This document shows, piece after piece, positions 9,406 to 25,017 of a DNA stretch of 64,000 bases (position 1 is its first letter; each line of letters begins with the position of its first letter). The notes under the pieces were generated by a model. It was not told the origin of the DNA. It did not search any database and worked only from the letters and a program-made list of their open reading frames with translations. The DNA lies in assembly GCF_000307105.1 (NCBI RefSeq), contig NC_018645.1, positions 1,872,578-1,936,577 on the forward strand, in the 5' to 3' direction. Position numbers and translations under genes: made by a program. Source of the DNA: Desulfobacula toluolica Tol2 (lineage in GTDB: Bacteria > Desulfobacterota > Desulfobacteria > Desulfobacterales > Desulfobacteraceae).

Positions 9406-9951
9406 ATGGAAAACTGCGAAGAATATGTGGTTATAGTGGATGAAGAGGACAAGCAAATAGGCATTGAGAGGAAACTTACGGTACATTCAAAAAACACACC
9501 TTTGCACCGGGCTTTTTCTCTTTTTTTGTTTAACTCCACAAAGGAACTTCTATTGCAGCAAAGAGCGAAAGATAAAAAAACATGGCCCCTGGTATGGTCA
9601 AATTCCTGTTGCGGCCACCCGTTGCCGGACGAATCCTACACAAGTGCCGTTATAAGGAGGACCCTCTATGAACTCGGGATAAAATTAAATGCCGTTGAAA
9701 AAATTTCAGACTACCGGTATTGTTTTTCCCGGGACGGCATCATGGAAAATGAAATTTGTCCTGTTTTTGTGGCATTTTATGATGGCAGTGTGGTGCCTAA
9801 TCCCAAAGAAGTACAGGCTGTCAAGTGGATAAAATGGGAGGATTGGCTGAAAGAAACAGGCAAACACCCGAACAGGTATTCACCCTGGTGTGTCGAGGAA
9901 ACCCTTATTTTAGCTGCAGATAGCAAATTTAACAGACTGCACGTTTTATAG
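9406..9951 (+). CDS. idi: Isopentenyl-diphosphate delta-isomerase, type I
   Basis: This 181-residue Nudix-fold enzyme interconverts isopentenyl and dimethylallyl diphosphate. The active-site cysteine is in NSCCGHP (residues 66-72), and the catalytic glutamate is in MENEICPVF (Glu114/Glu116), as in the Escherichia coli enzyme. The length is normal. A CAGGAG box lies 8 to 12 bases before the ATG. It complements the methylerythritol phosphate pathway gene dxr found at 55290. Type I enzymes are not essential in that pathway, but balance the two C5 units, for example for prenylation by UbiX, which uses dimethylallyl phosphate or diphosphate. That link is an inference. Confidence 0.93.
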   Translation: MENCEEYVVIVDEEDKQIGIERKLTVHSKNTPLHRAFSLFLFNSTKELLLQQRAKDKKTWPLVWSNSCCGHPLPDESYTSAVIRRTLYELGIKLNAVEKISDYRYCFSRDGIMENEICPVFVAFYDGSVVPNPKEVQAVKWIKWEDWLKETGKHPNRYSPWCVEETLILAADSKFNRLHVL

Positions 9952-10785: not shown

Positions 10786-11745
10786 TTATTCATTCTGGGG
10801 ATGCTCGGCAAGAATTTTTGCCATTATGGATCCTATACCTCCCCGGGGCGTTCCTTCAATAAAAGAATTTTTAAAAACATCGAAGAAAGCCTTTGCAGCA
10901 GGCGAAAGCGGTGTGTTTTTAATATAAGCAAAGCTGACATTAAGAAATATTCTGGTGTTCTTCAAGCTGCGTGAAATTAGTTTTTTTTCTTTTGTTTTAT
11001 GATCAATAGCGGGTTTGACCAGAAAAGATATCCCATCCCCTCTTTCCACAAGATTCATGATAAATTCGGTATTATTGGATTCCATGAAGATATTGGGTGT
11101 GGCGTTGTGCTTTTTGTAAAGATCCATTATTTTTTTTCGGGTTCCGGAACCTTGCCCCCTCATGATAACCGGTTCCAGGGCAATATCATTAAATTCAATT
11201 TCTTTTTTTCGGTTCAACGGATGGTTTACAGGAAGAATAATGACGATTTCTTCCAGGCTGAAAGGAATAAATTGAATTTTTGGATCAGTGACTTCCATTT
11301 GTGCCACCACAACCACTTCATTTTCAAATTCCAGCAGGCTTTTGATCATGGTCATGGAGCTGCCTTCTTGAAGAATGATTTTTATTTTGGGATAGGCCCT
11401 GTGAAAAACTGAAATAATGGACGGCATGATATGTTTGGCATAGGCTTTGGTACAACCCAGTTCCAAAAGTCCCTGATTCAGTTCTTTTATCTGGCTCAGA
11501 ATGTTTTCAACCTTATCCTCAATCTTGAAAATGCGTTCCGCCTGTTCAAACAATAATTCCCCCAGGTGGGTGAGAATAAGCCTCCTCCCTGTTTTTTTGA
11601 ATAATTTCATATCATAAAAATTTTCAAATAATTTAATCTGGGCCGTTACAGCAGGTTGGGAAATAAAAAGTTTTTCAGCGGCAATAGTATGGCTTGAGTG
11701 CTTTGCAACATAATAAAACGCCCTCAATTGATTCAAATTGATCAT
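10786..11745 (-). CDS. LysR-family transcriptional regulator
   Basis: The 319-residue protein starts at the ATG giving MINLNQLRAFYYVAKHSSHT; an upstream TTG is also possible. Residues 1-60 are the LysR winged helix (TIAAEKLFISQPAVTAQIKLFE), and the rest is the two-lobed effector domain. It is transcribed away from the phenylphosphate-synthase-like genes, the classical arrangement in which a LysR protein controls the divergent operon. A good T-N11-A site lies between them. The expected inducer is a phenolic substrate or product, by inference from the genes controlled. Confidence 0.9.
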   Translation of the reverse strand: MINLNQLRAFYYVAKHSSHTIAAEKLFISQPAVTAQIKLFENFYDMKLFKKTGRRLILTHLGELLFEQAERIFKIEDKVENILSQIKELNQGLLELGCTKAYAKHIMPSIISVFHRAYPKIKIILQEGSSMTMIKSLLEFENEVVVVAQMEVTDPKIQFIPFSLEEIVIILPVNHPLNRKKEIEFNDIALEPVIMRGQGSGTRKKIMDLYKKHNATPNIFMESNNTEFIMNLVERGDGISFLVKPAIDHKTKEKKLISRSLKNTRIFLNVSFAYIKNTPLSPAAKAFFDVFKNSFIEGTPRGGIGSIMAKILAEHPQNE

Positions 11746-11789
11746 GTGTCTCAATCCTCAACTTAGGTTGTTGCCTGGAAAAATATACT

Positions 11790-11804
11790 ATAAGAAAATC
11801 TTAT
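11790..11804. promoter_or_regulatory. Candidate LysR-type operator (T-N11-A)
   Basis: ATAAGAAAATCTTAT is a perfect dyad (ATAAGA/TCTTAT around AAA) that fits the T-N11-A rule for LysR binding sites. It lies 23 bases upstream of a good -35 box, so roughly -58 to -72 from the expected start, where LysR activators normally bind. A looser dyad, ATAAATGTCATAAGTTTAT, lies just downstream (11803-11821) and could be the inducer-responsive second site. Confidence 0.55.
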
Positions 11805-11826
11805 AAATGTCATAAGTTTATATGAA

Positions 11827-11855
11827 TTGACACTTTTTTTGTCAACACATATTAC
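11827..11855 (+). promoter_or_regulatory. Candidate sigma-70 promoter of the aromatic cluster
   Basis: A consensus -35 box TTGACA (11827-11832) is followed after 17 bases by TATTAC (11850-11855), which matches four of six bases of the -10 consensus. The weak -10 box fits an activator-dependent promoter. It would leave a leader of about 180 bases before the first gene. Confidence 0.5.
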
Positions 11856-11980
11856 TAAATACAACATACTTGCTATTTTTATTAAATTTGACTTGTTTTT
11901 AGATGTTGACGGCTTCTATCGTCATCCCACGCATCGCGTTTTATTTTTTGTAAGTATGAATTTAAGATTTCCAGATTTTA

Positions 11981-12007
11981 TTTTAGTCGGTTTTGTTTTA
12001 GTCGGTT
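11981..12007 (+). repeat. Direct repeat in the leader of the aromatic cluster
   Basis: TTTTAGTCGGTT occurs at 11981-11992 and again at 11996-12007, 15 bases apart, in the leader RNA or its DNA. It ends about 25 bases before the ribosome binding site. Upstream in the same leader are two small stems, GACG/CGTC and ACGC/GCGT, the latter followed by a T-rich run that could act as a weak attenuator. Confidence 0.4.
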
Positions 12008-12042
12008 CTTTTTAACACTTAAAATTTTTTATGGAGGTAAAA

Positions 12043-13884
12043 ATGGCTGATAAGAATTTTCCTAATCCCCACGAGATAGAAGCAATACCCGGCACGGAAG
12101 GGTGGGAGAGAATGTATCCGTATCATTATGTCTTTTCAACTAAAGACAAAGAAAGGGAAGCGTATGAGAACAATACGTTCTGGTTCAATGATGCACTTCA
12201 CTACCCTGAACCCTTGTATCCCTTTGATATTATCTGGGATGAGGCATGGTTTCTGGCACTGTCACAATTTAATACCCGGATTTTCAGTGTTCCACCGGTT
12301 TATGGCGTAGATCATAGAATTATCAACGGAAATGTTTATATTTCTCCGGTACCTGTAACTGATCCTGAAGAGGTTCAAAAAAGAATCCCCATGTTCATGG
12401 AAAGAGCCGGATATTATTATGAAAATTGGGATGACCTCCATAATCAATGGGAAAATAAAATGAAGGGAATCATTTCAGAAATTGAAAATCTTGAAATTGC
12501 CTCCCTGCCGGACATGGAAGATATCTCGGTGGTTAAAAACGGACTTGGAACCTCAAGCGGGTATGAGTTGCTCAAGAACTATGACAAGCTTATAGATTTG
12601 GGCATCAGGTGCTGGCAGTATCATTTTGAGTTTTTAAACCTGGGATATGCCTCCTATGTCACATTTGTTGATTTTTGTACCAAAGCCTTTCCTGATATCC
12701 CCCTCCAAAAAGTCACCCAGATGGTCGCAGGAATTGATGTTATTTTGTACAGGCCTGATGATGAATTGAGAAAATTGGCTAAATTGGCGATTGAGCTGGG
12801 CATTGATTCTCAAATCGGAGGAGATACCAAGGATATTGACGATGTTATTTCGGAACTTCAGGGTTCTGAAAATGGTAAAAAATGGGTCGCTGCATGGGAT
12901 GAAGCTAAATATCCATGGTTCAATATTTCAACAGGAACCGGATGGTATCATCAGGATGTTTCATGGAACGACAACCTGAATATCCCTTTAAGTTCCGTTA
13001 GAATATACATTGGCAAACTCAATGAGGGTAAATCCATAGACAGGCCCCTTGAACAAATAAAAATCGAACGTAAAAAACTTATTGTGGAATACAGAGGCTT
13101 GTTAAAAACAGATGAAGACCGGCAGACCTTTGATCAACTTCATGGTACGGCAGAACTGGTATTTCCCTATGTCGAGAATCATATGTTTTATGTGGAGCAT
13201 TGGTTTCATTCCGTATTCTGGAACAAGATGAGGGCTGTTGCCGCCATCATGGCGGATAATAATTTTCTTGAGGGGCAAGAGGACATCTGGTACATGTCCC
13301 GCAGTGAAATAAAAGAAGCATTATGGGATCTGGTCACTGCCTGGGCAAGTGGTACAAAGGGATATGGTCCCTTGCACTGGCCTGAAGAGATCCAATGGCG
13401 AAAAGGGGTTTATCAAAAATTCAAGGAAAATATTCCAATCCCAGCAGTTGGCAAACCGCCTGAAACAATTGCAGAACCGTTTACCATTGTGCTTTGGGGA
13501 ATTACCAATGAAAGCATGTCAGCATGGGCGAAGTTAAAAGAAATCGGTGATCCTGATAAAGTAAACGAGATGGAAGGTTTTGCAGGATCTCCGGGTGTTG
13601 CTGAAGGCATTGCAAGGGTATGCCGGTCAGTAGAAGATATCGGCGAACTCAAAGAGGGCGAAATCCTTGTAGCACCAACGACATCACCGTCCTGGGCACC
13701 GGTATTTCAAAAAATCAAAGCAGTTGTAACGGATGTGGGCGGCATCATGTGTCATGCCGCTATTGTTTGTCGTGAATACGGCATGCCCGCAGTTGTCGGA
13801 ACCGGCCAGGGAACGACAATCATAAAATCCGGCATGAAAATCAAGGTAAATGGCGATACAGGCAAAATCCATATAGAAAGGTAG
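12043..13884 (+). CDS. ppsA: Phenylphosphate synthase subunit A-like protein (phosphohistidine subunit)
   Basis: The 613-residue protein starts at the ATG with GGAGG 6 bases upstream; an ATG 12 bases earlier overlaps that box and is unlikely. In the known Thauera enzyme, subunit 1 (about 70 kDa) resembles the middle and phosphohistidine parts of PEP synthase and carries the histidine that transfers a phosphoryl group to phenol. Here, residues about 510-613 are the PEP-utiliser swivelling domain (GSPGVAEGIARV, TTSPSW) with the histidine in GGIMCHAAIVCREYGMPAVVG (about His571). The bulk of the protein has no other recognisable domain. Subunit B follows after 9 bases. The symbol is by similarity. 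The true phenol (phenol, cresol or catechol) is not shown. Confidence 0.8.
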   Translation: MADKNFPNPHEIEAIPGTEGWERMYPYHYVFSTKDKEREAYENNTFWFNDALHYPEPLYPFDIIWDEAWFLALSQFNTRIFSVPPVYGVDHRIINGNVYISPVPVTDPEEVQKRIPMFMERAGYYYENWDDLHNQWENKMKGIISEIENLEIASLPDMEDISVVKNGLGTSSGYELLKNYDKLIDLGIRCWQYHFEFLNLGYASYVTFVDFCTKAFPDIPLQKVTQMVAGIDVILYRPDDELRKLAKLAIELGIDSQIGGDTKDIDDVISELQGSENGKKWVAAWDEAKYPWFNISTGTGWYHQDVSWNDNLNIPLSSVRIYIGKLNEGKSIDRPLEQIKIERKKLIVEYRGLLKTDEDRQTFDQLHGTAELVFPYVENHMFYVEHWFHSVFWNKMRAVAAIMADNNFLEGQEDIWYMSRSEIKEALWDLVTAWASGTKGYGPLHWPEEIQWRKGVYQKFKENIPIPAVGKPPETIAEPFTIVLWGITNESMSAWAKLKEIGDPDKVNEMEGFAGSPGVAEGIARVCRSVEDIGELKEGEILVAPTTSPSWAPVFQKIKAVVTDVGGIMCHAAIVCREYGMPAVVGTGQGTTIIKSGMKIKVNGDTGKIHIER

Positions 13885-13893
13885 GATGATATC

Positions 13894-14976
13894 ATGGAAA
13901 AGAGATCTGATTACGTCCGCTGGTTTGAAGAATGCGACTTGGAATTGATTCCCGTTGTGGGGGGTAAAAACGCAAGTCTGGGCGAGTTGCTAAAAGCCAA
14001 AATCCCTGTTCCTCCGGGCTTTGCAATCACTACAAAAGCCTATAAGCTTTTTCTTGAACAGGGAAAGATCAAACAGAAAATATTTAAGATTATAGATGGC
14101 ATCAAAGCAGATGATGTGGACTCTGGCGAAACAGCCAGTAAAACCATCCGTGATCTCATTGAAAAGACACCGGTAAGTGACGACCTTCAGGATTATATCT
14201 GCGAATTTTACAGACTGCTTTCCAAAAAAAGCAACGTCCCTGCGGTTCCGGCTGCCGTCAGATCCAGCGCAACGGCTGAAGATCTCCCCGGTGCAAGCTT
14301 TGCCGGTCAGCAGGATACTTTTCTCTGGATAAGGGGGGCGGATGATATCCTCAAGCATGTAAAAAAATGCTGGTCAAGTCTTTTTACCTCCAGGGCCATT
14401 TACTATAGAACAAAAATGGGATTTCCTCATGAACAGGTGGAGATTTCCGTTGGTGTACAGAAAATGGCCAATGCATGGACAGCCGGTGTGATGTTTACCT
14501 TAAACCCTGCCACCGGAGACAGATCCACTGTTGCCATAGATGCAAATTGGGGATTTGGAGAGAGTGTTGTAAGTGGTGAATGCACGCCGGATAATTTTAT
14601 CATTAATAAAATTACGGATGAAGTGATTAAAAAATCAATTTCCCATAAAACCATTGCATATACTCGTGATCCCAAAACACATTGCGTTGTAAAAACCAAT
14701 GTTCCGGTGGAAAGAGCCGATATGCAATGCGTTGTTGATAAAGACGCCGTTTCGCTTGCCATCATTGGAAAACGAATTGAAAAACATTACGGCAAGGCCA
14801 TGGATATTGAATGGGCCATTGATAAAGACACGCCCGGCAAAGCCAAAATACTGATTCTTCAAAGCCGGCCGGAAACCGTATGGAGTGACAAAAAAGCAAA
14901 ACCGGTCATGAAAACAAGATCATCAGCTCTTGAGCATATTTGCGCAGGACTTGTTGCCGGCAGAAAAGTCAATTAA
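13894..14976 (+). CDS. ppsB: Phenylphosphate synthase subunit B-like protein (ATP-binding subunit)
   Basis: The 360-residue protein is the N-terminal ATP-binding half of a PEP synthase, made as a separate chain. It shows VGGKNASLGELL and PPGFAITTKAY at the start, RSSATAEDLPGASFAGQQDTFL (about residues 125-146), an AGVMFTLNPATGDR segment, and the closing ILQSRPETVW. In the Thauera model this 40 kDa subunit and the 70 kDa subunit together use ATP to phosphorylate the catalytic histidine, releasing AMP and phosphate, and so activate phenol. The length fits. A gap of 150 bases then precedes the UbiD gene. Alternative: a split PEP synthase of central metabolism, made less likely by the context. 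Confidence 0.82.
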   Translation: MEKRSDYVRWFEECDLELIPVVGGKNASLGELLKAKIPVPPGFAITTKAYKLFLEQGKIKQKIFKIIDGIKADDVDSGETASKTIRDLIEKTPVSDDLQDYICEFYRLLSKKSNVPAVPAAVRSSATAEDLPGASFAGQQDTFLWIRGADDILKHVKKCWSSLFTSRAIYYRTKMGFPHEQVEISVGVQKMANAWTAGVMFTLNPATGDRSTVAIDANWGFGESVVSGECTPDNFIINKITDEVIKKSISHKTIAYTRDPKTHCVVKTNVPVERADMQCVVDKDAVSLAIIGKRIEKHYGKAMDIEWAIDKDTPGKAKILILQSRPETVWSDKKAKPVMKTRSSALEHICAGLVAGRKVN

Positions 14977-15126
14977 TGATTGCATAAATTAATTTTGTTC
15001 AATTCCCGGTCCTTGATGTTTAAGTACCGGCTAAAAATATAACCCAGTGCGCATCGCGCCTGTAACCCTATGGTTGCGTCATGATTATTACATCATGGGG
15101 TTGCACCTGAAAAAGGAGAAAAATTT

Positions 15127-16533
15127 ATGAAGGACATGAGAGATTTTGTAGCTGTTTGTGAAGAAAAAGGTCTTTTGAAACGGATTACAGCTGAAGTTGA
15201 CACCCACCTGGAATTGTCCCATATTGCAAAATTAAATGAGGAAGCCCAGGGTCCTGCCCTGCTTTTTGAAAACGTTAAGGGTTTTGACTCACCTGTTATT
15301 ACAAGTGCCGCCACAACTGTTGAACGCCTTGCTATTATTATGGGTGAGTCGGAAAAATCAAGCCTTACCGATCTGTATGGCGCATGGGCGGAAAAAGCAA
15401 AATCGCCGATCAAGCCAAAATATGTGGATAAAAGCCAGGCACCTTGCAAGGAAAATATCCTGATGGGCGATGATGTGGACCTCAATAAATTTCCGGTCCC
15501 ACATTATTATCCTCTGGACGGCGGTAAATATTTTGGGACGGCTCATTTTATAATTACCAAAGATCCCGACTCAGGATGGGTTAACCTGGGCACCTATAGG
15601 AGTCAGCTTCTGGGTAAGGATAAGATCGGCACCCAGTTTATTAAAGGTAAACATGCCGATATTATGCTGAAAAAATACCAGGCATTGGGCGAACCCATGC
15701 CGGTGGCATCCATTGTAGGTTGCGATCCCATATTGTTTATCCTTGGCGCAGCAAGGGTCGGTGCTTTCACCAGTGAATATGATGTAGCCGGTGCCTTTCG
15801 CGGTGAGCCCGTGGAAATTGTCAAAGGCGAAGTGGTTGACCTGCCCATTCCAGCCCATGCGGAAATCGTGGTGGAAGGGTTTGTGGATGCGGAAAAATTC
15901 ATGGAAGAGGGCCCGTTTGGCGAATATACCGGATATTATTCTGGTGTGGGCACTGATCCCAGAAATTTTATTGATGTCAAATGTATTACCTACAGGAACA
16001 ACCCGATATTCTGGGGAACCACTGTCGGGCGTGCGGTAACGGATTCTCACATGGTTATGGCCCTGTCCTATGGTGCCACCTTGTGGCAGCAGCTCAATGA
16101 AATGAATATCCCTGGCTTGAAAGCAGCTTATTGCCCGCCGGAAGGAGCCGGAAGATTCCTTGCCATTATTTCCATGAAACAAATGTATCCGGGACATGTT
16201 GATCAGGTTCTTACCGCATCAATATCAACGGAAATGGGTGCTTATGGCCTTAAGACCGTGATAGTGGTGGACGAGGATATTGATCCATGGGATATTCCCA
16301 GGGTGATGTATGCCTTGAGTTTCAGGTTCCAGCCCAACCGTTCCCAGGTGATCAAACGGGGCCGTTCAACTCCGCTTGATCCTTCATTGCCCATTGAAGC
16401 AAGGGAGATTACAGGAAGACTTCTCATGGACGCCACTATTCCTTATGAATGGAAAGACAAACCAATTCCCATCGAACTTGATTCTGACATGGTTGTACAG
16501 GTGAAAGAAAGATGGTCAGAGCTTGGGTTATAG
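15127..16533 (+). CDS. UbiD-family (de)carboxylase, phenylphosphate carboxylase alpha/beta-like
   Basis: The 468-residue protein is a prenylated-FMN enzyme of the UbiD family. The conserved arginine is in NLGTYRSQLLGKD and the two catalytic glutamates are in EEGPFGEYTGYY. The C-terminal IPWEW-like part (ATIPYEWKDKPIPIELD) is also typical. In phenylphosphate carboxylase, UbiD-like subunits add CO2 para to the phosphate-bearing carbon to give 4-hydroxybenzoate. Here there is one UbiD gene, not two as in Thauera. A UbiX gene for the cofactor is in the same cluster. A GGAG box lies 9 bases before the ATG. The direction (carboxylation) is an inference from the Pps genes. Confidence 0.85.
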   Translation: MKDMRDFVAVCEEKGLLKRITAEVDTHLELSHIAKLNEEAQGPALLFENVKGFDSPVITSAATTVERLAIIMGESEKSSLTDLYGAWAEKAKSPIKPKYVDKSQAPCKENILMGDDVDLNKFPVPHYYPLDGGKYFGTAHFIITKDPDSGWVNLGTYRSQLLGKDKIGTQFIKGKHADIMLKKYQALGEPMPVASIVGCDPILFILGAARVGAFTSEYDVAGAFRGEPVEIVKGEVVDLPIPAHAEIVVEGFVDAEKFMEEGPFGEYTGYYSGVGTDPRNFIDVKCITYRNNPIFWGTTVGRAVTDSHMVMALSYGATLWQQLNEMNIPGLKAAYCPPEGAGRFLAIISMKQMYPGHVDQVLTASISTEMGAYGLKTVIVVDEDIDPWDIPRVMYALSFRFQPNRSQVIKRGRSTPLDPSLPIEAREITGRLLMDATIPYEWKDKPIPIELDSDMVVQVKERWSELGL

Positions 16534-16570
16534 GAAAATACCATTGACTTACAGCTTGCGATAAATCTGT

Positions 16571-16622
16571 TGTGGCAGGCCGGAAGGCCTCAGATAATAA
16601 ATAAATATTTCGGCCTGCCACA
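16571..16622. promoter_or_regulatory. Inverted repeat between the UbiD and CoA-ligase genes
   Basis: The perfect 12-base arms TGTGGCAGGCCG and CGGCCTGCCACA flank a 28-base AT-rich loop. No T tract follows on either strand, so it is not a classical terminator. It might be an mRNA-stabilising hairpin, a partial terminator, or a protein-binding site. Confidence 0.55.
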
Positions 16623-16696
16623 TGGTTTTGCGAGCAGCTCTGAAATCGAATGATAATTGATATTGGAAAAAAATGCTACAAAGGAAAGGATGAATT

Positions 16697-18352
16697 GTGA
16701 AACCAATTCGATATACCAAAGAGATGACTGATGAATTCCTGGAGGATGGATACTGGACCCGGGAAACATTTTATGATTTCTGGGAAAAGAATGCCAGGGA
16801 GATACCGGATCAGGAAGCATTGGTGGATTCAAAATACCGGCTGACATGGAAACAGGCTGTGGAACTTGTGGATGCCATGGCCATATCCTGGGTTGAAATG
16901 GGGATTGAAAAACACTCCAGGGTGATCATTCAGTCTCCTAACAGCGTATACGGCTTTCTGGCAAGAATTGCATGTGAACGGGCAGGGCTGATTTCCCTGA
17001 CGGTTTATCCGTATTTGAGAAAAAAAGAACTGACCTACATGGTTGACCGAACCAAGGCCTCGGCCGTGATTATTCTTGCCAACTATAACAAGTTCAACTA
17101 CCTTGAAATGTACGAAGATCTTCAAAAGGATTTTCCCCATCTGAAAAATATATTTTTGTTTGATGACATGGTTCCTCAGGATGCACCAAAAGGAACGTTT
17201 TCATTGACCTCAATGGTTGAAAAAAGAGTTCTTTTGCCGGTGGACAAGTCAGTTCTTGTAAAAAGACGCTTTGACCCTGTTGGAAATATTGCCATTCTCA
17301 CCACCACCTCCGGTACTACGGGTATCCCGAAATTGGTTGAATGGCCGCCTGCTCCCAGAATATGCACCTCAAAAGGCCGGGTGGATATCTGGAATCTGAC
17401 CAAAGACGATATCACCATGGCCATTGCCCCTCATGCAGGCGGGGCTGCCGGAACTCTGACCTATTTTGCAGCGCCTATTGCGGGAGCCAAAACCGTTATG
17501 CTGGAAGAGTTTTCCCCGGATGCGGCATTGGCCCTGATTGAAAAAGAAAAAGCCACTGCCATTGGCGTGGTGCCGACCCATCTGATAAGGATGCTTGAGG
17601 CGGATGTGTCAAAGTATGATTTAAGCTCGTTGAGGTTTATCCGTTCCGCAGGCGGGTATCTGGCTCCCCAGGTGGCAGAGGAGGCAGAAAAAGCCTTTGG
17701 AGCCTCCATCACAAGTGATCTGGGCACCCAGGACATGGGGTCTGTTTCAGGCTGCAGGGTTGAAGATTCCAAAGATCTGAGACGGCGGACCGTGGGCAGA
17801 ATGCTGCCAGGCAATAAGGTACGGCTGGCAGACAAAGAAAACAAGGAGAAAACAGTTCCCGATGGTGAACCCGGTATTCTGTATTTCAGGGGGCCTCATG
17901 CACCGGCCGGGTATTACCGCGACGAAGAACTCACCTCCACGGTATTTGACAAAGACGGCTGGACAACTACGGAAGATATTGTCAAGTTTGACCAGGGGTG
18001 TCTCTGGATACTGGGCCGTGCAAAGGATATGATCATCCGGGGCGGTCAAAATATTTATCCTGCCGAAGTGGAAGGCCTGCTCAACGATCATCCTGCCGTG
18101 GCATCGGTTGCCATTGTTGGGTATCCTGACAGGGAAATGGGAGAAAAATGCGCAGCCTATGTTATTCCGAAAAAAGGCGAGCAATTTGATTTTAAGACTA
18201 TGGTCGATTATTTGAAATCCAAAGATATCGCCATGTTCAAACTCCCTGAACATCTTGAAATCGTGGATGAATTCCCGGCTGTTGGAGATTCCGGCAAGGT
18301 GAATAAAGAGACACTTAAAAAAGATATTCGCAAGAGATTGGGTTTAAATTAG
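16697..18352 (+). CDS. Aryl/acyl-CoA ligase (AMP-forming)
   Basis: The 551-residue protein starts at a GTG with AAGGAAAGGA upstream. It has the adenylate-forming signature TTTSGTTGIPK (about residue 197), the DLGTQDMGS motif, the GWTTTEDIVKFD motif, the hinge LGRAKDMIIRGGQNIYPAEVE, and the C-terminal catalytic lysine in GDSGKVNKETL. The likely job, given the carboxylating genes upstream, is to activate 4-hydroxybenzoate (or a related aromatic acid) with CoA and ATP. The sequence also resembles 2,3-dihydroxybenzoate-AMP ligases, so the exact acid is uncertain. Long inverted repeats flank the gene on both sides. Confidence 0.85.
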   Translation: MKPIRYTKEMTDEFLEDGYWTRETFYDFWEKNAREIPDQEALVDSKYRLTWKQAVELVDAMAISWVEMGIEKHSRVIIQSPNSVYGFLARIACERAGLISLTVYPYLRKKELTYMVDRTKASAVIILANYNKFNYLEMYEDLQKDFPHLKNIFLFDDMVPQDAPKGTFSLTSMVEKRVLLPVDKSVLVKRRFDPVGNIAILTTTSGTTGIPKLVEWPPAPRICTSKGRVDIWNLTKDDITMAIAPHAGGAAGTLTYFAAPIAGAKTVMLEEFSPDAALALIEKEKATAIGVVPTHLIRMLEADVSKYDLSSLRFIRSAGGYLAPQVAEEAEKAFGASITSDLGTQDMGSVSGCRVEDSKDLRRRTVGRMLPGNKVRLADKENKEKTVPDGEPGILYFRGPHAPAGYYRDEELTSTVFDKDGWTTTEDIVKFDQGCLWILGRAKDMIIRGGQNIYPAEVEGLLNDHPAVASVAIVGYPDREMGEKCAAYVIPKKGEQFDFKTMVDYLKSKDIAMFKLPEHLEIVDEFPAVGDSGKVNKETLKKDIRKRLGLN

Positions 18353-18363
18353 GTTTATAATAT

Positions 18364-18417
18364 TAGAACTGCAGTAATTGCAGGTTTTAATTGTATTGCA
18401 CAATTACTGCAGTTCTA
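18364..18417. promoter_or_regulatory. 17-base perfect inverted repeat between the CoA-ligase and UPF0261 genes
   Basis: The arms TAGAACTGCAGTAATTG (18364-18380) and CAATTACTGCAGTTCTA (18401-18417) are perfect complements around a 20-base loop. It starts 12 bases after the ligase stop and ends 4 bases before the GAGG box of the next gene. There is no T tract. The stem would be very stable in RNA and close to the ribosome binding site, so it could separate expression of the two gene groups. Confidence 0.7.
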
Positions 18418-18432
18418 TCAGAGGTTAAAAAA

Positions 18433-19671
18433 ATGACAAACTCAAAAACCGTTTTAATTATATCTACCCTTGATACCAAAAGAGAAGAAACACGGTATTT
18501 GAAGTACAAGTTTAAGGAAATTAGTGTTTTACCTCTTTTAATGGATCTTTCCATGCGGGGAAAGGAAAAGTCCCATGCTGAATTGACTCCGTCCGATGTG
18601 GCGTCGGCAGGTGGAAGCACCATAGAACAAATTAATAATTCCAAAGAGCGGTCTACCATAACCAATATTATTATTGACGGGGCAACGAAAATTGCCAAGG
18701 ATCTGTATGCGGCAGGAAAAATTCACGGAGTTATGGCCCTTGGCGGGTCAACCGGATCTTTGATGGCAACAGATGTCATGCGGGCATTGCCCTTTGGGAT
18801 TCCAAAGCTTATGATCTCTTCAACAGCAGCGCTTCCCGGACTTTCCACAAAGTATATCGGTACAGGTGATATTTTATTGTTCCATTCAGTCATTGAAATA
18901 TCCGGTGTGACGGATATGCTAGCCAATGTTATGGACAGGGCCTGTTATGCCATGAAAGGCATGATAAAGTATGTTAACAATTCCTTTGCAGGAAGCGACA
19001 AAAAAACCATTGCCATGACCATGCTGGGTCCTTGTGAACAATGCGCCAGTTCAGTCAGACAAGCCCTGGAAAAAGAAGGATACCAGGTCACCGGGTTTTC
19101 CGCAGCCGGTGTCGGGGACAGGGCCATGGAAAAGATGATTGCCGAAGGGTTTTTCCAGGGGGTCATTGACCTGGCACCGGGCGGTGTGGGAGAACATTAT
19201 TTCGGGTATATGCGCGACGGCGGTCCTGATAGGCTGGAATCCGCCGGAAATAAGGGAATTCCCCAGATTATTTCCTTTTGCTCGGTTAATCACATGACCC
19301 CGTCCAGGTCAAAATATAAAAAAGAATTCCATGAACGGCGGAAATATGATCTGGATAAGTTTCGGACCTGGCTTCGTTTGTCTCCGGATGAACTCAAAGA
19401 GGTGGCCTGTGAATTTGCAAGAAAACTCAATGGTGCAAAAGCTCCTGTGAAGCTTCTGATCCCCACCCGGGGGTGGTCGTCGGTGGATTGCAAGGGCAAT
19501 CCAACCTATGATCCGGAAGAAGATAAAATTTTTGTGGAAACATTGAAAGACGGTTTGAATTTTGGAAAAGCCGGTCTGGATTCCGGGATAGAAATTATTG
19601 AAGTGGATGCTAACATGGAAGATTCAGCGTTCAGTCAACAGGTAACTATGGCGGCATTGGAGCTTTTTTAA
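18433..19671 (+). CDS. Tm-1-like ATP-binding protein (UPF0261)
   Basis: The 412-residue protein starts at the ATG giving MTNSKTVLIISTLDTKREET, 9 bases after a GAGG box. It fits the UPF0261 family, related to the plant resistance protein Tm-1: an N-terminal ATP-binding fold with GVMALGGSTGSLMATDVMRALPFGIPKLMISS, and a C-terminal domain like TIM-barrel PEP-hydrolase-type proteins (VIDLAPGGVGEHYFGYM, LLIPTRGWSS). The biochemical function of bacterial members is not established. The next gene starts within its stop codon (TAATG), so the two are translationally coupled. Its place inside a phenol-activation cluster suggests a role with ATP- or phospho-intermediates, but this is a guess. Confidence 0.8.
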   Translation: MTNSKTVLIISTLDTKREETRYLKYKFKEISVLPLLMDLSMRGKEKSHAELTPSDVASAGGSTIEQINNSKERSTITNIIIDGATKIAKDLYAAGKIHGVMALGGSTGSLMATDVMRALPFGIPKLMISSTAALPGLSTKYIGTGDILLFHSVIEISGVTDMLANVMDRACYAMKGMIKYVNNSFAGSDKKTIAMTMLGPCEQCASSVRQALEKEGYQVTGFSAAGVGDRAMEKMIAEGFFQGVIDLAPGGVGEHYFGYMRDGGPDRLESAGNKGIPQIISFCSVNHMTPSRSKYKKEFHERRKYDLDKFRTWLRLSPDELKEVACEFARKLNGAKAPVKLLIPTRGWSSVDCKGNPTYDPEEDKIFVETLKDGLNFGKAGLDSGIEIIEVDANMEDSAFSQQVTMAALELF

Positions 19672-20273
19672 TGGATGCATTGTTTGAACAGCGGCTGGTT
19701 GAAATGATTGAGCCAATATACCAAAAGGGCCGTGACGGAGACTGGGACCATGTTCAGCGTATGGTAAAATTTTGTAAATTCCTGCTGAAACATGAAGACG
19801 CAGATGAAAATATCGTGCTGCCGGCAGCATATCTCCATGATATCGGCTGGACTGCCATTGATTTTTCCGACTTTAACATCGCAACTCCCAAGGTTAAAGC
19901 CAAGGCATCAAGCGTTGCTTTGCATATGGAACAAGGTGCGTTCATTGCCGGTAAAATTTTGACGGATCTTGAATATGATCAAGCCAAGATCAAAGAGATA
20001 CAGGATATCATTAAGGTTCATGATTTGCCGGAAACGGTTTTTAAAATGAACAATATTTGTGCAACCCTGGTCGTTGAAGCAGACCGGCTGGACAGATACG
20101 GCAAAACAGGTCTTGCCAGGTTTAAAACCATGTTTGGAAAAGATAAGCTTGAGGGACAATACTGGGAAGAAGCCAGGCAATTAAGGCTTGACGGTCTTAA
20201 AAAATGGTTTAGAACACGAACGGGAGTTGCTTTGTCTGAAAAACTGGCCATGGAGATGGGGTTGTTTGATTAG
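19671..20273 (+). CDS. HD-domain protein
   Basis: The 200-residue protein has the metal-binding HD superfamily pattern: H in WDHVQRMVKF near residue 27, the HD pair in AAYLHDIGW near residues 61-62, a later HM in VALHMEQGA, and D in EADRLDRYG. HD proteins of this kind hydrolyse phosphate esters or nucleotides. The substrate is unknown. Translation is coupled to the upstream UPF0261 gene by a one-base TAATG overlap, so the two products probably act together. A pair of an ATP-binding and a phosphohydrolase protein within a cluster that makes an aryl phosphate is striking. Confidence 0.78.
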   Translation: MDALFEQRLVEMIEPIYQKGRDGDWDHVQRMVKFCKFLLKHEDADENIVLPAAYLHDIGWTAIDFSDFNIATPKVKAKASSVALHMEQGAFIAGKILTDLEYDQAKIKEIQDIIKVHDLPETVFKMNNICATLVVEADRLDRYGKTGLARFKTMFGKDKLEGQYWEEARQLRLDGLKKWFRTRTGVALSEKLAMEMGLFD

Positions 20274-20340
20274 CAGAAGGGCCTTGCCTGTTTTTTTTGA
20301 GCAGGGGTTTAACAAAACCAAAATATAAGGAGAGATAAGG

Positions 20341-20991
20341 ATGATTGTTAAAAACTGGATGTCCAAAAATCCTGATACAATGTCAAGTGATCTTTCAGCA
20401 AAAGAGGCCATGGATTTATTTGAAGAAAAACGGGTTCCTTTTATGTCAGTTGTCGATAACGGCAAGTTCAGAGGGCTTATTGCCAGGCGGGATTTAAGAG
20501 CGGCTGCTGCCTGGGCCATTGCCAGTCAGGATATTTATGAAATAGAATATTTTAACGAACGATTAAAAGTAAAAGATATCATGGTCAGAAAACCGGTCAC
20601 GATTACTGTGGATGATTCTGTTGAAACCGCCCTTGAAAAGGGCAAGGCTTTCGGCAGAAGTTTTTTGCCGGTCATGGATAATGATACACTTGTGGGAACC
20701 CTTTCAAACAGGGATTTTTCCAATGCTTTGGGTCAGCTTTTGGGAACCTATGAGGGGCTGCACAGTGCTTCCATCGAGATAAGCGGTAATTCAAGGGACA
20801 GCATCAGAAAAATCCTGGAAGATATTTTTGCCATGGGACTTGAAATAAAGGGGTTATTTACCTTGAAAAATCCTGATTCCGGTAAAAAAAGACTTATCCT
20901 CCGGTTTCAGGCCAAATGCTTTAAAAGAATTATCTCGTTAATTAAAGAAAAAGGTTATAATTTGATAGAAGTTGTCAAACACGAACAATAA
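20341..20991 (+). CDS. ppsC: Two-CBS-domain protein, phenylphosphate synthase subunit C-like
   Basis: The 216-residue protein has two CBS domains, about residues 1-70 (VKNWMSKNPDTMSSDLSAKE, RGLIARRDLR) and 75-135 (VKDIMVRKPVTITVDDSVET, LVGTLSNRDFSN), then an ACT-like C-terminal part (IRKILEDIFAMGLEIKGLF). In Thauera a 24 kDa protein with two CBS domains stimulates phenylphosphate synthase. Size, domains and context fit that protein, so the symbol is by analogy. CBS pairs bind adenine nucleotides, so it may tune phenol activation to the ATP/AMP balance. Unlike in Thauera, as I recall it, the gene is separated from ppsAB by several others. Confidence 0.68.
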   Translation: MIVKNWMSKNPDTMSSDLSAKEAMDLFEEKRVPFMSVVDNGKFRGLIARRDLRAAAAWAIASQDIYEIEYFNERLKVKDIMVRKPVTITVDDSVETALEKGKAFGRSFLPVMDNDTLVGTLSNRDFSNALGQLLGTYEGLHSASIEISGNSRDSIRKILEDIFAMGLEIKGLFTLKNPDSGKKRLILRFQAKCFKRIISLIKEKGYNLIEVVKHEQ

Positions 20992-21029
20992 TAAATAGTT
21001 TTTAACCGACAAACCCAAAGGAGTCATGT

Positions 21030-21671
21030 ATGGCAAAACGATTAATTGTAGGGATAGCCGGGGCAAGTGGTGTGATTTATGGGGTCAGGATGCTGGAAGT
21101 CCTTAAAAATCAAGGCATTGAAACCCATCTGATTATTTCAGAGGCTGGAAAACTCAATATCAGGATAGAAACCGATTATGATGTGGATGACGTTCTTGCC
21201 ATGGCTGATTTCACCTATACCAATAAAGATATTGCCGCATCTGTTGCAAGTGGGTCTTTTTTGACCATGGGCATGGTGGTTGCGCCCTGTACGGTTAAGA
21301 CTTTGTCCGGAATCGCCAATTCCTATAATGAGAATCTTCTGATCCGGGCCGCAGATGTTCAGCTCAAAGAAAAACGCAAAGTTGCGCTGCTGTTCAGAGA
21401 AACCCCTTTGCATAAAGGACATTTAAGGCTTTTAACCCAGGCTGCGGACATGGGAGCCCATATTATTCCGCCTGTACCGGCATTTTATCATCATCCCAAA
21501 ACCATTGATGATATTATCAACCAATCCGTGGGAAAAGTTTTGGATTACATTGGTATCGAACATGATCTGTTTCAACGCTGGGATAATTCAGAACTGGATA
21601 AACTTATGAACAACTCTGCAGCCGGTAAAAACAAGAACACCTGTGAGAAAAAGATGGTCGCCATAAAATAA
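21030..21671 (+). CDS. UbiX-family flavin prenyltransferase
   Basis: The 213-residue protein begins with the UbiX signature GIAGASGVIYGVRMLEVL, followed by SGSFLTMGMVVAPCTVKTLSGIANSYNENLLIRAADVQLKEKRKV and the FRETPLHKGHLRLLTQAADMGAHIIPPVPAFY block. UbiX attaches a dimethylallyl group to FMN to make the cofactor of UbiD enzymes. It lies in the same cluster as the UbiD gene at 15127, so it most likely serves that enzyme. An AAAGGAG box precedes the ATG. A basic C-terminal tail of about 20 residues (KNKNTCEKKM) is unusual. Confidence 0.9.
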   Translation: MAKRLIVGIAGASGVIYGVRMLEVLKNQGIETHLIISEAGKLNIRIETDYDVDDVLAMADFTYTNKDIAASVASGSFLTMGMVVAPCTVKTLSGIANSYNENLLIRAADVQLKEKRKVALLFRETPLHKGHLRLLTQAADMGAHIIPPVPAFYHHPKTIDDIINQSVGKVLDYIGIEHDLFQRWDNSELDKLMNNSAAGKNKNTCEKKMVAIK

Positions 21672-21735
21672 AAAAGATATCAGGAGCAATCGAACCTGAA
21701 CATACAGATAAAATTTATGATGAAGAAATAATCAA

Positions 21736-22050
21736 ATGATTCAACATCCAAAATGCAGGATCACAGTCATAAAAAGATCGCTTAACCGAGATATTATTGA
21801 CGCCTATGTGAAAGAAGAAATGAAAAGAATCAGTTTGTGCAGCAAGTTCAAGGAAGGGGACCAATTTTTGGTATATTCTGAATTTGACATGCCGGATAAA
21901 TTTTGTCACTGGGCCTGGGCGGATATCAGACATGATATCATGGCTGTTGTTAACAGTGTCCGATTTCCCTGGTTCAAGGAAAAGGCAATGACCATATCCG
22001 GTTGTACAGACTGGCTTAAGCCGGTTCTGTTTAAAATTGAAAAATTATAG
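21736..22050 (+). CDS. TIGR04076-family small protein
   Basis: The 104-residue protein has the features of this family: an early C-x-I-T-V-I-K segment (KCRITVIKRSLNR), a C-x-x-F-K-E-G-D-Q-F segment, the FCHWAWADIRHDIMAV block, and a closing SGCTDWLKPVLFKIEKL. Conserved cysteines and tryptophans point to a small metal- or cofactor-binding protein. No function is known to me. It sits 12 bases before the HAD gene and 64 bases after the UbiX gene, inside the aromatic cluster. Its size (about 12 kDa) is near that of the small gamma subunit of phenylphosphate carboxylase, but I see no sequence evidence that it is that subunit. Confidence 0.72.
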   Translation: MIQHPKCRITVIKRSLNRDIIDAYVKEEMKRISLCSKFKEGDQFLVYSEFDMPDKFCHWAWADIRHDIMAVVNSVRFPWFKEKAMTISGCTDWLKPVLFKIEKL

Positions 22051-22062
22051 GAGAGAACCGCC

Positions 22063-22737
22063 ATGTTTGAAGACCGGCAATTTGAACTTATACTGTTCGA
22101 TCTTGAAGGCACTTTGGTGGATTTTCAATGGCACCTGAAGGATGCGGCAACAAAGCTCCTTCAGGTTCTGTTCAATGCCGGCATTGATCCTGCCCGATAC
22201 GGAGAGTCTCCGGGATATGCCGGTCTTTACAATACTACCAGGGATATTACGGGTGACTGGGATATTCAAGAGGCTGAGCAATTGTTTGGGCAACTTGCCA
22301 TGATTTATGATTTTTATGATCTGGATGCTTTGAGCAGATGGACCCCATACCCGGACGTACGGCCTGTACTGGAAAAGCTTTCAGCCTGCAAGTATCGTAT
22401 GGGCGTGGTGAGCAACTGCGGGTATTATGCCGCAGAGACCGTCCTGGAACGTTTCGATCTGGCCGGATATTTTGAACTGGTTGTGTCAAGAAACGATGTT
22501 TTGTATTTAAAACCTTTTCCTGACGGATTGAATCTGGCCATAGAGAAGCTTTGCATGCCCGCTGACAAAACTCTGTTTGTCGGTGATTCGATCAACGATA
22601 TTCTGGCTGCAAATAAAGTTCCCGTAACATCATGTTTTCTATCCGGCGGAGAAAGCCGGGTTACCGGTGAGGACAGTCTTACGGCAGATTTCCGGATATC
22701 GTCTTTTTCAGGGCTTGCCGATATCCTGGTCCACTGA
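22063..22737 (+). CDS. HAD-family hydrolase, possibly phenylphosphate carboxylase delta-like
   Basis: The 224-residue protein has the HAD motifs in order: I, LFDLEGTLVDF with the nucleophile Asp; II, GVVSNCG; III, the lysine in LKPFPDG; IV, FVGDSINDILAA. In motif I the second aspartate (the general acid/base in DxDGT) is replaced by glutamate. In Thauera a smaller HAD-type delta subunit of phenylphosphate carboxylase has phosphatase activity; this protein may be a functional equivalent or may simply remove aryl phosphate. It is the last gene of the cluster. Its last 30 bases overlap the end of the convergent molybdenum hydroxylase gene. Confidence 0.75.
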   Translation: MFEDRQFELILFDLEGTLVDFQWHLKDAATKLLQVLFNAGIDPARYGESPGYAGLYNTTRDITGDWDIQEAEQLFGQLAMIYDFYDLDALSRWTPYPDVRPVLEKLSACKYRMGVVSNCGYYAAETVLERFDLAGYFELVVSRNDVLYLKPFPDGLNLAIEKLCMPADKTLFVGDSINDILAANKVPVTSCFLSGGESRVTGEDSLTADFRISSFSGLADILVH

Positions 22738-25017
22738 TTTGGTTTGTTCCAGATCCAGCATGCCCATTAAAATGTTTTCACAGGTCATGGGAAGGGTTCT
22801 CAAGTAAATCCCGGCGGCATTATGGATGGCGTGGGCAATGGCCGGTGACGGAGTGTTGATGACCACTTCCCCGATTGATTTGGCACCAAATGGGCCTGTT
22901 GGTTCATAGCTGCTTTCAAATTCAACCCGAATTTTTCCCACGTCCTGGCGGGAGGGTATTTTATATTGCATAAAAGAACTGGTGATCATTTTCCCTTTTG
23001 TGCTGCAGGCAATATCCTCATACAAGGCCATGCCGATTCCCTGGACAATGCCGCCTTCCGCCTGTATCCTGGCAAGGTTCGGGTTTATGGGGGTGCCGCA
23101 GTCAATCACTCCCACATAATCCACCACCTTTGTTTCCCCGGTTTCAAGATCCATTTCAATTTCCGCAAACCCTGCCATGAACGGCGGCGGAGAGACAGGG
23201 CTTGAATGGGATGCCCCGGCTGTAAGGCTGGTGTGATTGCCGACTGCTGTTTTTTGCGCCAGATCATCAAGGGTAATTATAGCTTGATCATTGAATATCT
23301 TGTTTCCGTCAAACTCCAGAGTTTCTGCCGTGGTTTTCAGCAAAGCGGCCGCCCTGGAAACAATTTTTTTCTTGAGTTTTTCACAGGCTTTAACCACTGC
23401 CGTGCCGGTCAAATATGTGGTGCTGGAAGCATAGGACCCGGTATCATATGGGGAGTGATCCGTGTCGACTTGGCTGACAATGATTTGTTCCATGGGGCAT
23501 CCAAGGCATTGGGCAGCCATCTGAGCTAAGATGGTATCACATCCGGTACCCATGTCTGCGGCACCGATCATCAAGGTGTAAAATCCATCATCCTGAAGCC
23601 GGATCTGAGCCGATGCAGTATCAATATTGGCGATCCCGGAACCCTGCATGGTGATGGCGGCTCCCACTGCCCGGACTTTTGTGCTGCTGATTTTTCGGCA
23701 CGGGTATTTTGTATGCCACCCGATCATTTCCCTGCCTTTTTTGATACAGGCTTCAAGAGCGCAGGAGTTGAGGGGTTCGCCATAATAGGCGCTCAGAGTA
23801 TCTCCTTTGCGTAACAGGTTCTTCAACCTGAGATCCAGGGGGTCCATGTCAAGTTCGTCCGCCAGTTCGTTTATGGCTGACTCAAGGGCAAAGGTTCCCT
23901 GGGTGGCGCCGTATCCTCTGAAGGCTCCTGCGGGCAGGGTGTTGGTATACACCACCTGGTAGCTGAACTTAAATGCCCGGGCCCGGTTGTACAGCGCCAT
24001 GGTCTTGTGGCCGGACAGGTTGACGGTTGTGGGGGCATGCTCCCCGTAGGCACCTGTATTGGAAAGGGTGTCGATGTGAATGGCCAGGATGTTGCCGTGG
24101 CGGTCCGCTCCCGCCCTTACCCGGATGATCATTTCGTGGCGGCTGGTGGAGGCGGTAAAAGATTCATGCCGGTCAAACACCATTTTGGCGGGTTTGCCGG
24201 TTTTTAATGTTACAATGGCCGGGAAAAGTTCGCTTATAACGGTCTGCTTGGCGCCAAACCCGCCCCCGATCCTGGGTTTGATTACCCGGACCTTTGCTTT
24301 TGGAATATCCAGGGCCTTTGCCGTAATCCTACGGACATGGAAAGGAATCTGGGTTGATGTGACAAGGGTCAGTCGTCCGGCATGATCCAGGTATGAATAG
24401 GTTCTGAAGGTTTCCATCATGGCCTGGCTATTAGGCTTAGTATGATAGACACGGTCCACCACACAGTCACATCTGGCAAATTCGGTTTCCACATCTGAGC
24501 TTTCAAATCCGCCTGCACAGCACAGGTTTCTTTTTCTATCATTGCCGATGTCAACATTCACATGATAGTTTTTTTCCGGGTGTATTATACTTTCATTGTC
24601 CAGGGCCTGTTTTAGATCAATCACCGGCTCAAACTGTTTATATGAAACCTTGATGGATTTTAACGCCCGGTTTACGGTCTTTTCATCTGTGCCGGCCACT
24701 ATGGCTACAGGATCACCCACATACCGGACTGTTTTATCCAGGATCAGGCGGTCATAGGGGCTGGGTTCGGGATAGGACTGGCCTGCCGTGGTAAATCGTT
24801 TGCCCGGCACATCCTGCCAGGTGAGGATACAGTCTATTCCTTCCGTTTCCCGGGCTTTTTGTACATCAATGTCCAGAATTTCGGCAAAGGCATGGGGGCT
24901 TCTCAATACTTTGACCACCAGGCAGTTTTCCGGTGCCAGGTCATCTGTGTAAACGGGTTTGCCCGTTACCAGGGCAGCTGCATCAATTTTCTCAACCCCT
25001 TTGTTAACATATTTCAT
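22708..25017 (-). CDS. Molybdenum hydroxylase, molybdopterin-binding subunit
   Basis: The 769-residue protein starts at the ATG giving MKYVNKGVEKIDAAALVTGK, with AAGGAG 7 bases upstream. It is a full-length xanthine dehydrogenase-type large subunit: the N-terminal a/b-hammerhead part up to about residue 120, then motifs RIGGGFGAKQ, AFRGYGATQGTFALES, GAADMGTGCDTILAQ and YASSTTYLTGTAVV. The active-site glutamate is expected in FGAKSIGEVVINTPSPAI near the C-terminus. The substrate is unknown; purines, nicotinate-like compounds or aromatic CoA esters are all possible. Its start overlaps the 2Fe-2S gene by 14 bases. Confidence 0.9.
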   Translation of the reverse strand: MKYVNKGVEKIDAAALVTGKPVYTDDLAPENCLVVKVLRSPHAFAEILDIDVQKARETEGIDCILTWQDVPGKRFTTAGQSYPEPSPYDRLILDKTVRYVGDPVAIVAGTDEKTVNRALKSIKVSYKQFEPVIDLKQALDNESIIHPEKNYHVNVDIGNDRKRNLCCAGGFESSDVETEFARCDCVVDRVYHTKPNSQAMMETFRTYSYLDHAGRLTLVTSTQIPFHVRRITAKALDIPKAKVRVIKPRIGGGFGAKQTVISELFPAIVTLKTGKPAKMVFDRHESFTASTSRHEMIIRVRAGADRHGNILAIHIDTLSNTGAYGEHAPTTVNLSGHKTMALYNRARAFKFSYQVVYTNTLPAGAFRGYGATQGTFALESAINELADELDMDPLDLRLKNLLRKGDTLSAYYGEPLNSCALEACIKKGREMIGWHTKYPCRKISSTKVRAVGAAITMQGSGIANIDTASAQIRLQDDGFYTLMIGAADMGTGCDTILAQMAAQCLGCPMEQIIVSQVDTDHSPYDTGSYASSTTYLTGTAVVKACEKLKKKIVSRAAALLKTTAETLEFDGNKIFNDQAIITLDDLAQKTAVGNHTSLTAGASHSSPVSPPPFMAGFAEIEMDLETGETKVVDYVGVIDCGTPINPNLARIQAEGGIVQGIGMALYEDIACSTKGKMITSSFMQYKIPSRQDVGKIRVEFESSYEPTGPFGAKSIGEVVINTPSPAIAHAIHNAAGIYLRTLPMTCENILMGMLDLEQTKSVDQDIGKP

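Follow-up and report, generated by a model that had tools for sequence, protein, structure and literature searches.

The stretch analysed here, 64,000 nucleotides of Desulfobacula toluolica Tol2 (contig NC_018645.1, positions 1,872,578 to 1,936,577; hereafter the window), carries on its + strand, from 12031 to 22737, ten full open reading frames in a row with gaps of -1 to 163 bases, in which homologues of the phenylphosphate genes are accompanied by a gene of the UPF0261 (Tm-1/MarK) family directly behind that of a CoA ligase. Taken as a whole, the best explanation, which we hold with about even confidence, is a cluster that would convert phenol to 4-hydroxybenzoyl-CoA with the UPF0261 protein as an ATP-dependent aryl phosphotransferase or phosphate-handling partner. 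The computed results are gene content, homology, adjacency, clade and residue pattern, and from these we infer all enzymatic activities, phenol as the substrate and a role as kinase. The protein families that an earlier, sequence-only reading had named in the cluster were all recovered, with Pfam and NCBIfam in agreement and each in a full + strand frame (Table 1).

The link between UPF0261 and the CoA ligase was assessed in 395 genomes of the phylum, the same set being searched for PpsA-like proteins, UPF0261 and the ligase. The ligase (E up to 1e-150) was found in 34 of the 395 genomes, with one match each, and the UPF0261 family in 91. UPF0261 is the next gene downstream of the ligase, on the same strand, in 33 of the 34 (32 from listed coordinates, with a gap of at most 379 bases, and G047 by tblastn, locus L105), while in the remaining genome, G300, no more than 154 bases of contig are left past the ligase. 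A PpsA-like gene above 400 bits is present somewhere in 32 of these 34 ligase-UPF0261 genomes, the two without one being G231 (95% complete) and G042 (67% complete). UPF0261 was also considered as a general replacement for PpsAB and rejected as such, as nine of 12 genomes checked keep a PpsA above 500 bits, with none in G231 and G042 and just a fragment, at the end of a contig, in G452 (the 12 genomes stand for 14 handles, G453 being taken as G231 and G451 as G042 on identical coordinates).

A set of named genome contigs, the best 80 of the 123 relatives found, gave the same picture, with the ligase directly upstream of UPF0261 in 73 of the 76 loci that have at least 400 bases of upstream sequence (exceptions L138, L188 and L194). 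This last count is biased upward because the patterns used to find the named loci derive from ligase-linked sequences, a bias of which the UPF0261 and ligase searches in the 395 genomes are free. The two sets are not independent, since some named loci come from genomes that are also in the other set (of four pairs compared, three have the tested stretch in common, the exception being L094/L129). Where at least 7 kb of upstream sequence was available, UbiD was found in 44 of 46 named loci and PpsA in 39 of 46. Viewed from PpsA, UPF0261 lies within 15 kb of a PpsA-like gene at at least 50 of 108 loci, against roughly 1.6% expected on a crude estimate. The 108 come from 112 PpsA matches of at least 100 bits, and inclusion of the four omitted ones (the fragment G224:C123:2463, near a UPF0261 gene, and matches of 103-108 bits in G208, G349 and G331, with no listed UPF0261 near) would make the count at least 51 of 112. 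Such co-location counts are lower bounds, because they cover the PpsA and UPF0261 matches listed and, in the PpsA and ligase searches, at most three scored candidates per genome, and because many genomes are fragmented.

Some of the UPF0261 genes near PpsA are of other subfamilies and stand behind PpsB or else have UbiD on one side and a PaaK-type ligase on the other. In L171, L173, L174, L178, L182, L183 and L198, which also carry the ligase-linked UPF0261, a second, more distant UPF0261 (31-37% identical) follows PpsB, so that in some organisms a single stretch encodes PpsAB together with two UPF0261 proteins. The literature searched, subscription papers lying outside that search, yielded no account of the ligase-UPF0261 pair. 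UPF0261, HD and TIGR04076 genes all recur beside ppsAB genes in related genomes, and since these extra genes recur the cluster is a genuine, repeatedly found variant rather than an accidental grouping of genes. The view that the three extra families form one set did not hold, as UPF0261 is a near-obligate companion of the CoA ligase and the HD and TIGR04076 genes are optional. What varies is the presence of an additional UPF0261 enzyme, linked to the steps of UbiD and ligase, and not the substrate. The UPF0261 family is widespread and long went without an assigned function, and its adjacency to the ligase ties it to a concrete pathway outside that for acetovanillone; the UbiD-ligase-UPF0261 arrangement also provides a marker for anaerobic phenol clusters of the type found in sulfate reducers and syntrophs.

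Table 1. Genes of the cluster and the LysR-type gene divergent from it (window positions)
Feature	Position	Strand	Evidence or remark
LysR-type regulator	10786..11754	-	divergent from cluster; homologue upstream in same-genus loci
PpsA-like subunit of phenylphosphate synthase, 617 aa	12031-13884	+	PF00391; NF006152 1023.9 bits vs cut-off 723; Cys574-His575
PpsB-like ATP-binding subunit, 360 aa	13894-14976	+	PF01326
UbiD-family carboxylase, PpcB type	15127-16533	+	TIGR02724 PpcB 488.8 bits vs cut-off 468.95
AMP-forming (AMP-binding) aromatic acid CoA ligase	16697-18352	+	Pfam
UPF0261 (Tm-1/MarK family)	18433-19671	+	PF06792 and PF23189, each above cut-off
HD-domain protein	19671-20273	+	PF01966
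PpsC-like protein with two CBS domains	20341-20991	+	Pfam; Azoarcus ppsC comparison
UbiX flavin prenyltransferase (cofactor for UbiD)	21030-21671	+	Pfam, NCBIfam; Azoarcus comparison
TIGR04076 protein	21736-22050	+	55.1 bits vs cut-off 33
HAD-IA hydrolase, phosphoglycolate-phosphatase-like	22063-22737	+	Pfam, NCBIfam

The core of the cluster was compared with plasmid pAZKH of Azoarcus sp. KH32C, which has a complete Thauera-type cluster with annotated ppcB, ppcD, ppcA and ppcG; the phosphoenolpyruvate (PEP)-utilising enzyme, PEP/pyruvate-binding protein and CBS protein encoded before the ppc genes were taken as ppsA, ppsB and ppsC. Identities were 64% for PpsA, 54% for PpsB, 48% for the UbiD to PpcB and 58% for UbiX, and the two-CBS protein matched the Azoarcus ppsC product at 32% (E 8e-40). 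The PpsA-like protein has the PEP-utiliser mobile domain PF00391 and the Cys-His motif, the His of which is predicted to be catalytic by its likeness to His581 of HpeH, a PpsA homologue in which this residue is reported to be essential (PMC12167813). Because these pps and ppc homologies hold, the PpcB model is passed and the PpsA His is kept, the core is predicted to be that of ordinary anaerobic phenol activation. The phenylphosphate core proposed earlier is thus borne out, and the possibility raised with it, that the Pps-like pair is a normal split PEP synthase, falls away given its identity to the pps pair of a ppc cluster.

The likeness to the Thauera-type cluster therefore covers PpsA, PpsB, the PpsC-like CBS protein, the PpcB-like UbiD and UbiX. 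In contrast, the window cluster lacks PpcA, PpcD and PpcG beside the PpcB-like gene, its CoA ligase is of another type (25% identity over a part), and UPF0261, HD, TIGR04076 and HAD genes are added. No alpha subunit (TIGR02723) was found in the cluster, which holds a single UbiD; a PpcA-like UbiD encoded elsewhere in the genome, the best of three other UbiD types tested, scored 334.4 bits against a cut-off of 564.6. No delta subunit PpcD was found in the cluster, to which the search for it was confined, and the gamma subunit PpcG (TIGR02725) gave no match in any of the 34 ligase-UPF0261 genomes, but the controls gave no match either. The accessory proteins were considered for these places and rejected: the TIGR04076 protein has no significant similarity to Azoarcus PpcG, and the HAD protein is not the carboxylase delta subunit, as it has no significant similarity to PpcD of the Thauera-type cluster.

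A comparable arrangement has been reported in Desulfatiglans anilini, whose phe cluster has ppsA, ppsB, a ppcB-type UbiD gene and a ubiX-like gene together, with ppc-alpha outside the cluster and no ppc-gamma reported as found (PMC6114531, PMC7500099). The genome studied here resembles it in that its PpcA-like UbiD, below cut-off, is encoded elsewhere. Unlike the ligase of the window, that of D. anilini is annotated as a phenylacetate-CoA ligase, and the main text on the phe cluster does not name UPF0261, the unnamed genes of that cluster being outside the comparison (PMC6114531, PMC7500099).

PpsAB is interchangeable in the cluster, the other genes less so. In G232, PpsA is 39% identical to that of the window, against 83% for UbiD, 78% for the ligase, 76% for UbiX, 73% for TIGR04076, 67% for HAD and 64% for UPF0261. 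Pairwise distances, compared over 42 of 53 loci after removal of duplicates, correlated weakly between PpsA and UbiD (0.19), and those of UPF0261 correlated best with UbiX (0.87), followed by PpsB (0.67) and the ligase (0.65); as a measure of gene-pair co-evolution, the comparison did not discriminate. We read UbiD, ligase, UPF0261 and UbiX as a unit that moves together and combines with either type of PpsAB.

The predicted structure of the window UPF0261 protein (mean pLDDT 88) has the UPF0261 fold and matches Tm-1 and the PDB entry 9MPY. The latter is the nearest solved relative by sequence and the first match in Foldseek, while VIA-align ranks Tm-1 first; its record describes Saro_1862, a UPF0261 domain protein of Novosphingobium aromaticivorans with acetovanillone bound. 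Acetovanillone catabolism in Novosphingobium is reported to begin with MarK, a single-component kinase that does the job of the two-component HpeHI/AcvAB (PMC13101465), and HpeHI is in turn homologous to phenylphosphate synthase (PMC9618137). Saro_1862 is thus probably MarK, and the protein in 9MPY, which binds a phenol, is most likely an ATP-dependent phenol kinase. On a plasmid of Pseudomonas putida, a UPF0261 gene whose product is 53% identical to 9MPY stands with genes for a CoA ligase, three biotin-carboxylase-type proteins, a HAD hydrolase and an amidohydrolase, a set in which we see the genes of an hpe operon, UPF0261 taking the slot of the kinase. With the acetovanillone complex, MarK and this plasmid at hand, the statement that UPF0261 has no known role is outdated for the family.

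The window protein nevertheless differs from these relatives. MarK/Saro_1862, of the hydroxyphenylethanone pathway of Novosphingobium, falls in a separate clade, and carboxylation, which is the task of a UbiD in the window, is that of a biotin enzyme in the MarK pathway, as reported for the related hpe pathway (PMC9618137). Otherwise the usual partner of the family is the TIM-barrel protein TBST (PF09370), UPF0261 being reported in 491 of 504 bacterial genomes with TBST (PMC5028733). In contrast to Tm-1 and those bacterial UPF0261-TBST pairs, none of the 34 ligase-UPF0261 genomes had a TBST match, in a search whose control matched in 1 of 14 genomes.

In a tree of 34 UPF0261 sequences, the 13 ligase-linked ones form one group (support 100/100), apart from MarK and from the Tm-1/TBST group. 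L188, which has no ligase, falls within this clade. In the region L188:4404-13352 this ligase-type UPF0261 has as neighbours a gene for an aldehyde ferredoxin oxidoreductase, a transglutaminase-like gene and, close by, one more UPF0261. Comparison of the 13 ligase-linked sequences with 20 others, L188 being placed in neither group, gave 16 differing columns, from which we single out eight (155, 223, 229, 251, 254, 286, 394 and 396) where MarK has the residue of the others; relative to MarK the ligase-linked proteins also have a two-residue insertion. Residue counts were then made with identical sequences taken once each and matches of fewer than 330 columns left out. The 83 distinct ligase-linked sequences all have E155, D229, E254 and N286; residue 251 in them is G (75) or A (8), S223 is found in 78, and N394 and E396 in 79 each. 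The common family residue at the eight positions, in the order given, is found in 28, 31, 28, 25, 22, 16, 26 and 19 of 39 other distinct sequences, eight of them clade members whose ligase is absent or lies outside the contig. These positions thus vary in the rest of the family too, 286 and 396 most of all. D14, K16, E19, G104, G105, K125, S129 and D146 are conserved in 90% or more of the 34 family sequences. We read this pattern as suggesting a changed substrate or chemistry on a preserved scaffold. The eight changed positions, in a clade of its own, are the main argument against equating the window protein with MarK; we read it as a proposed aryl phosphotransferase subfamily, whose substrate the remodelled positions do not fix.

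The closest solved structures to the CoA ligase are 2,3-dihydroxybenzoate- and salicylate-activating enzymes. An arylation function on these acids was rejected, as the His-Asn pair of DhbE, which we take to contact the 2-hydroxyl of the substrate, aligns with Gly-Gly in the ligase. In the two relatives tested, the best model for the alpha subunit of the reductase encoded after UPF0261 was that of 4-hydroxybenzoyl-CoA reductase alpha, with 897 and 887 bits against 603 and 584 for the next model, although neither score reached the curated cut-off of 994.55. A single FAD-type subunit was tested, that of L173, and it scored higher as other members of the family. Because the reductase after UPF0261 resembles 4-hydroxybenzoyl-CoA reductase, the ligase that stands before it in these relatives is assigned, probably and with some doubt, as a 4-hydroxybenzoate-CoA ligase.

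In the pathway that we propose, PpsA and PpsB, aided by the CBS protein, would convert phenol to a phosphorylated phenol, UbiD with the prenylated flavin from UbiX would exchange the phosphate for a carboxyl group, and the CoA ligase would activate the resulting 4-hydroxybenzoate to 4-hydroxybenzoyl-CoA. The UPF0261 protein would be a fixed functional partner of the UbiD-ligase pair, an ATP-dependent phosphotransferase or phosphate-handling enzyme with an aromatic intermediate of the pathway as its substrate; in the simplest case its remodelled active site would form an aryl phosphate by a second route, one with a single component. This suggests two unrelated phenol-phosphorylating families in one operon, in bacteria that live on very little energy.

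Alternatively, the ligase-linked UPF0261 might have lost its kinase chemistry and serve as a scaffold or ligand-sensing subunit through which an aromatic compound and ATP would regulate the CoA ligase or the UbiD. The replacement of common family residues at 251, 254, 286, 394 and 396 throughout the clade and the fixed adjacency to the ligase could be accommodated in this way. Strict conservation of E155, D229, E254 and N286 in all 83 sequences, however, fits a new activity better than decay, and Pfam recognises two UPF0261 domains alone in the window protein, so that we regard such a subunit as possible but rather unlikely.

A little less credible is an ordinary second phenol kinase, with the substrate and product of PpsAB but yielding ADP and not AMP, and thus a cheaper enzyme for use at high phenol. 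The replacement of the two-component HpeHI/AcvAB by MarK (PMC13101465) is a precedent, as is the same gene swap on the Pseudomonas plasmid. In contrast, the residues of the window protein differ from those of MarK, UPF0261 adjoins the ligase rather than PpsAB, and there is little sign of interchange between PpsAB and UPF0261, because a PpsA-like gene above 400 bits is missing from just two of the 34 ligase-UPF0261 genomes (G231 and G042).

More doubtful still is the prediction that the ligase-linked UPF0261 proteins are aryl kinases repurposed to act after carboxylation, on the ring hydroxyl of 4-hydroxybenzoate or 4-hydroxybenzoyl-CoA. If it is true, anaerobic phenol degradation in sulfate reducers and syntrophs would pass through a second, undescribed phospho-intermediate, made by a family unrelated to PpsAB.

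Least probable, and in our view quite improbable, is the suggestion of the sequence-only reading that the cluster acts on a phenol other than phenol itself, since the points that would favour it (an accessory set unlike that of the Thauera-type cluster, and a Cys before the catalytic His of PpsA, at residue 574, where Azoarcus PpsA has Ser and where Cys is reported for HpeH and Ser for PpsA and CreH (PMC12167813)) are met by the presence of both Cys and Ser at this position among PpsA relatives at least 80% identical, by the closeness of PpsA to the ppc-linked PpsA (64%) against about 45% to the relatives on Rhodococcus plasmids, by a UbiD above the PpcB cut-off and by the best fit of the reductase after UPF0261, in the two loci tested, to 4-hydroxybenzoyl-CoA reductase alpha.

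The HD, TIGR04076 and HAD genes are optional accessories. The ATG of the HD gene shares one base (19671) with the UPF0261 stop codon. Of the 71 named loci with 1 kb or more of sequence downstream, 14 have an HD gene no more than 300 bases behind UPF0261, ten of these neighbours being 63-78% and four 47-55% identical to the window HD protein; L196, with an HD gene 967 bases away and 30% identical, is outside this count. In the same genus the gene is present in three of nine stretches with the complete region, in addition to the window. The HD protein has H27, H56-D57, H85, H117-D118 and D138 as conserved residues, of which H27, H56, D57, H117 and D138 are invariant in an alignment of six sequences, so that its metal-binding residues are kept, and its PDB matches are small HD hydrolases. 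TIGR04076 was found in seven of the 80 named loci (six of 38 among those with at least 5 kb downstream) and adjoins the HAD gene in five of the seven; one of these five pairs, in G232/L162 from another family of the order, is on the opposite strand. The predicted model of the TIGR04076 protein (mean pLDDT 55) was too poor to use, and a PDB search with the protein gave nothing useful. At the place after UbiX, the same-genus loci L082, L083, L088 and L092 instead have genes for proteins of 87 and 660 aa, and the gene at this place in L082 encodes an aldehyde ferredoxin oxidoreductase. It is plausible that the HD and HAD proteins hydrolyse phosphate esters, be it in the pathway itself or in the formation of the substrate for UbiX, and the extra control of the phospho-intermediate suggested earlier would be a possible, putative role for these two.

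Upstream, position 11790, from which the cluster had been described, is intergenic and 5' of its first gene, and the divergent LysR-type gene is the probable regulator of the cluster. Downstream, a three-subunit molybdenum hydroxylase is encoded at 22708-26265 on the - strand, converging on the cluster and overlapping its last gene by 30 bases. It was rejected as a 4-hydroxybenzoyl-CoA reductase (TIGR03194/TIGR03193), its alpha subunit scoring 469.9 bits against a cut-off of 994.55, and higher as XdhA (647.6), and its gamma subunit 114.9 bits against 257.8; it is xanthine-dehydrogenase-like instead.

A type 1 isopentenyl-diphosphate isomerase gene (9406-9951, + strand) lies near the cluster, with homologues in L084, L087, L088, L093, L094 and L096, and could be a source of the dimethylallyl substrate for UbiX. 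In L094 (948-2093, - strand) a DUF120 (CTP-dependent riboflavin kinase) domain is fused to a HAD hydrolase and adjoins an isomerase-like NUDIX gene; DUF120 and NUDIX genes are also present in the Azoarcus KH32C cluster, and the L094 protein possibly serves flavin supply for UbiD. Outside the window, at about 3166137-3253808 of G000:C1, five stretches of 3,630 bases (L204-L208), each with a UbiD-family gene, are 100% identical to one another and are spaced 19.3 to 23.5 kb apart, perhaps as a recently amplified region with units of about 20 kb.

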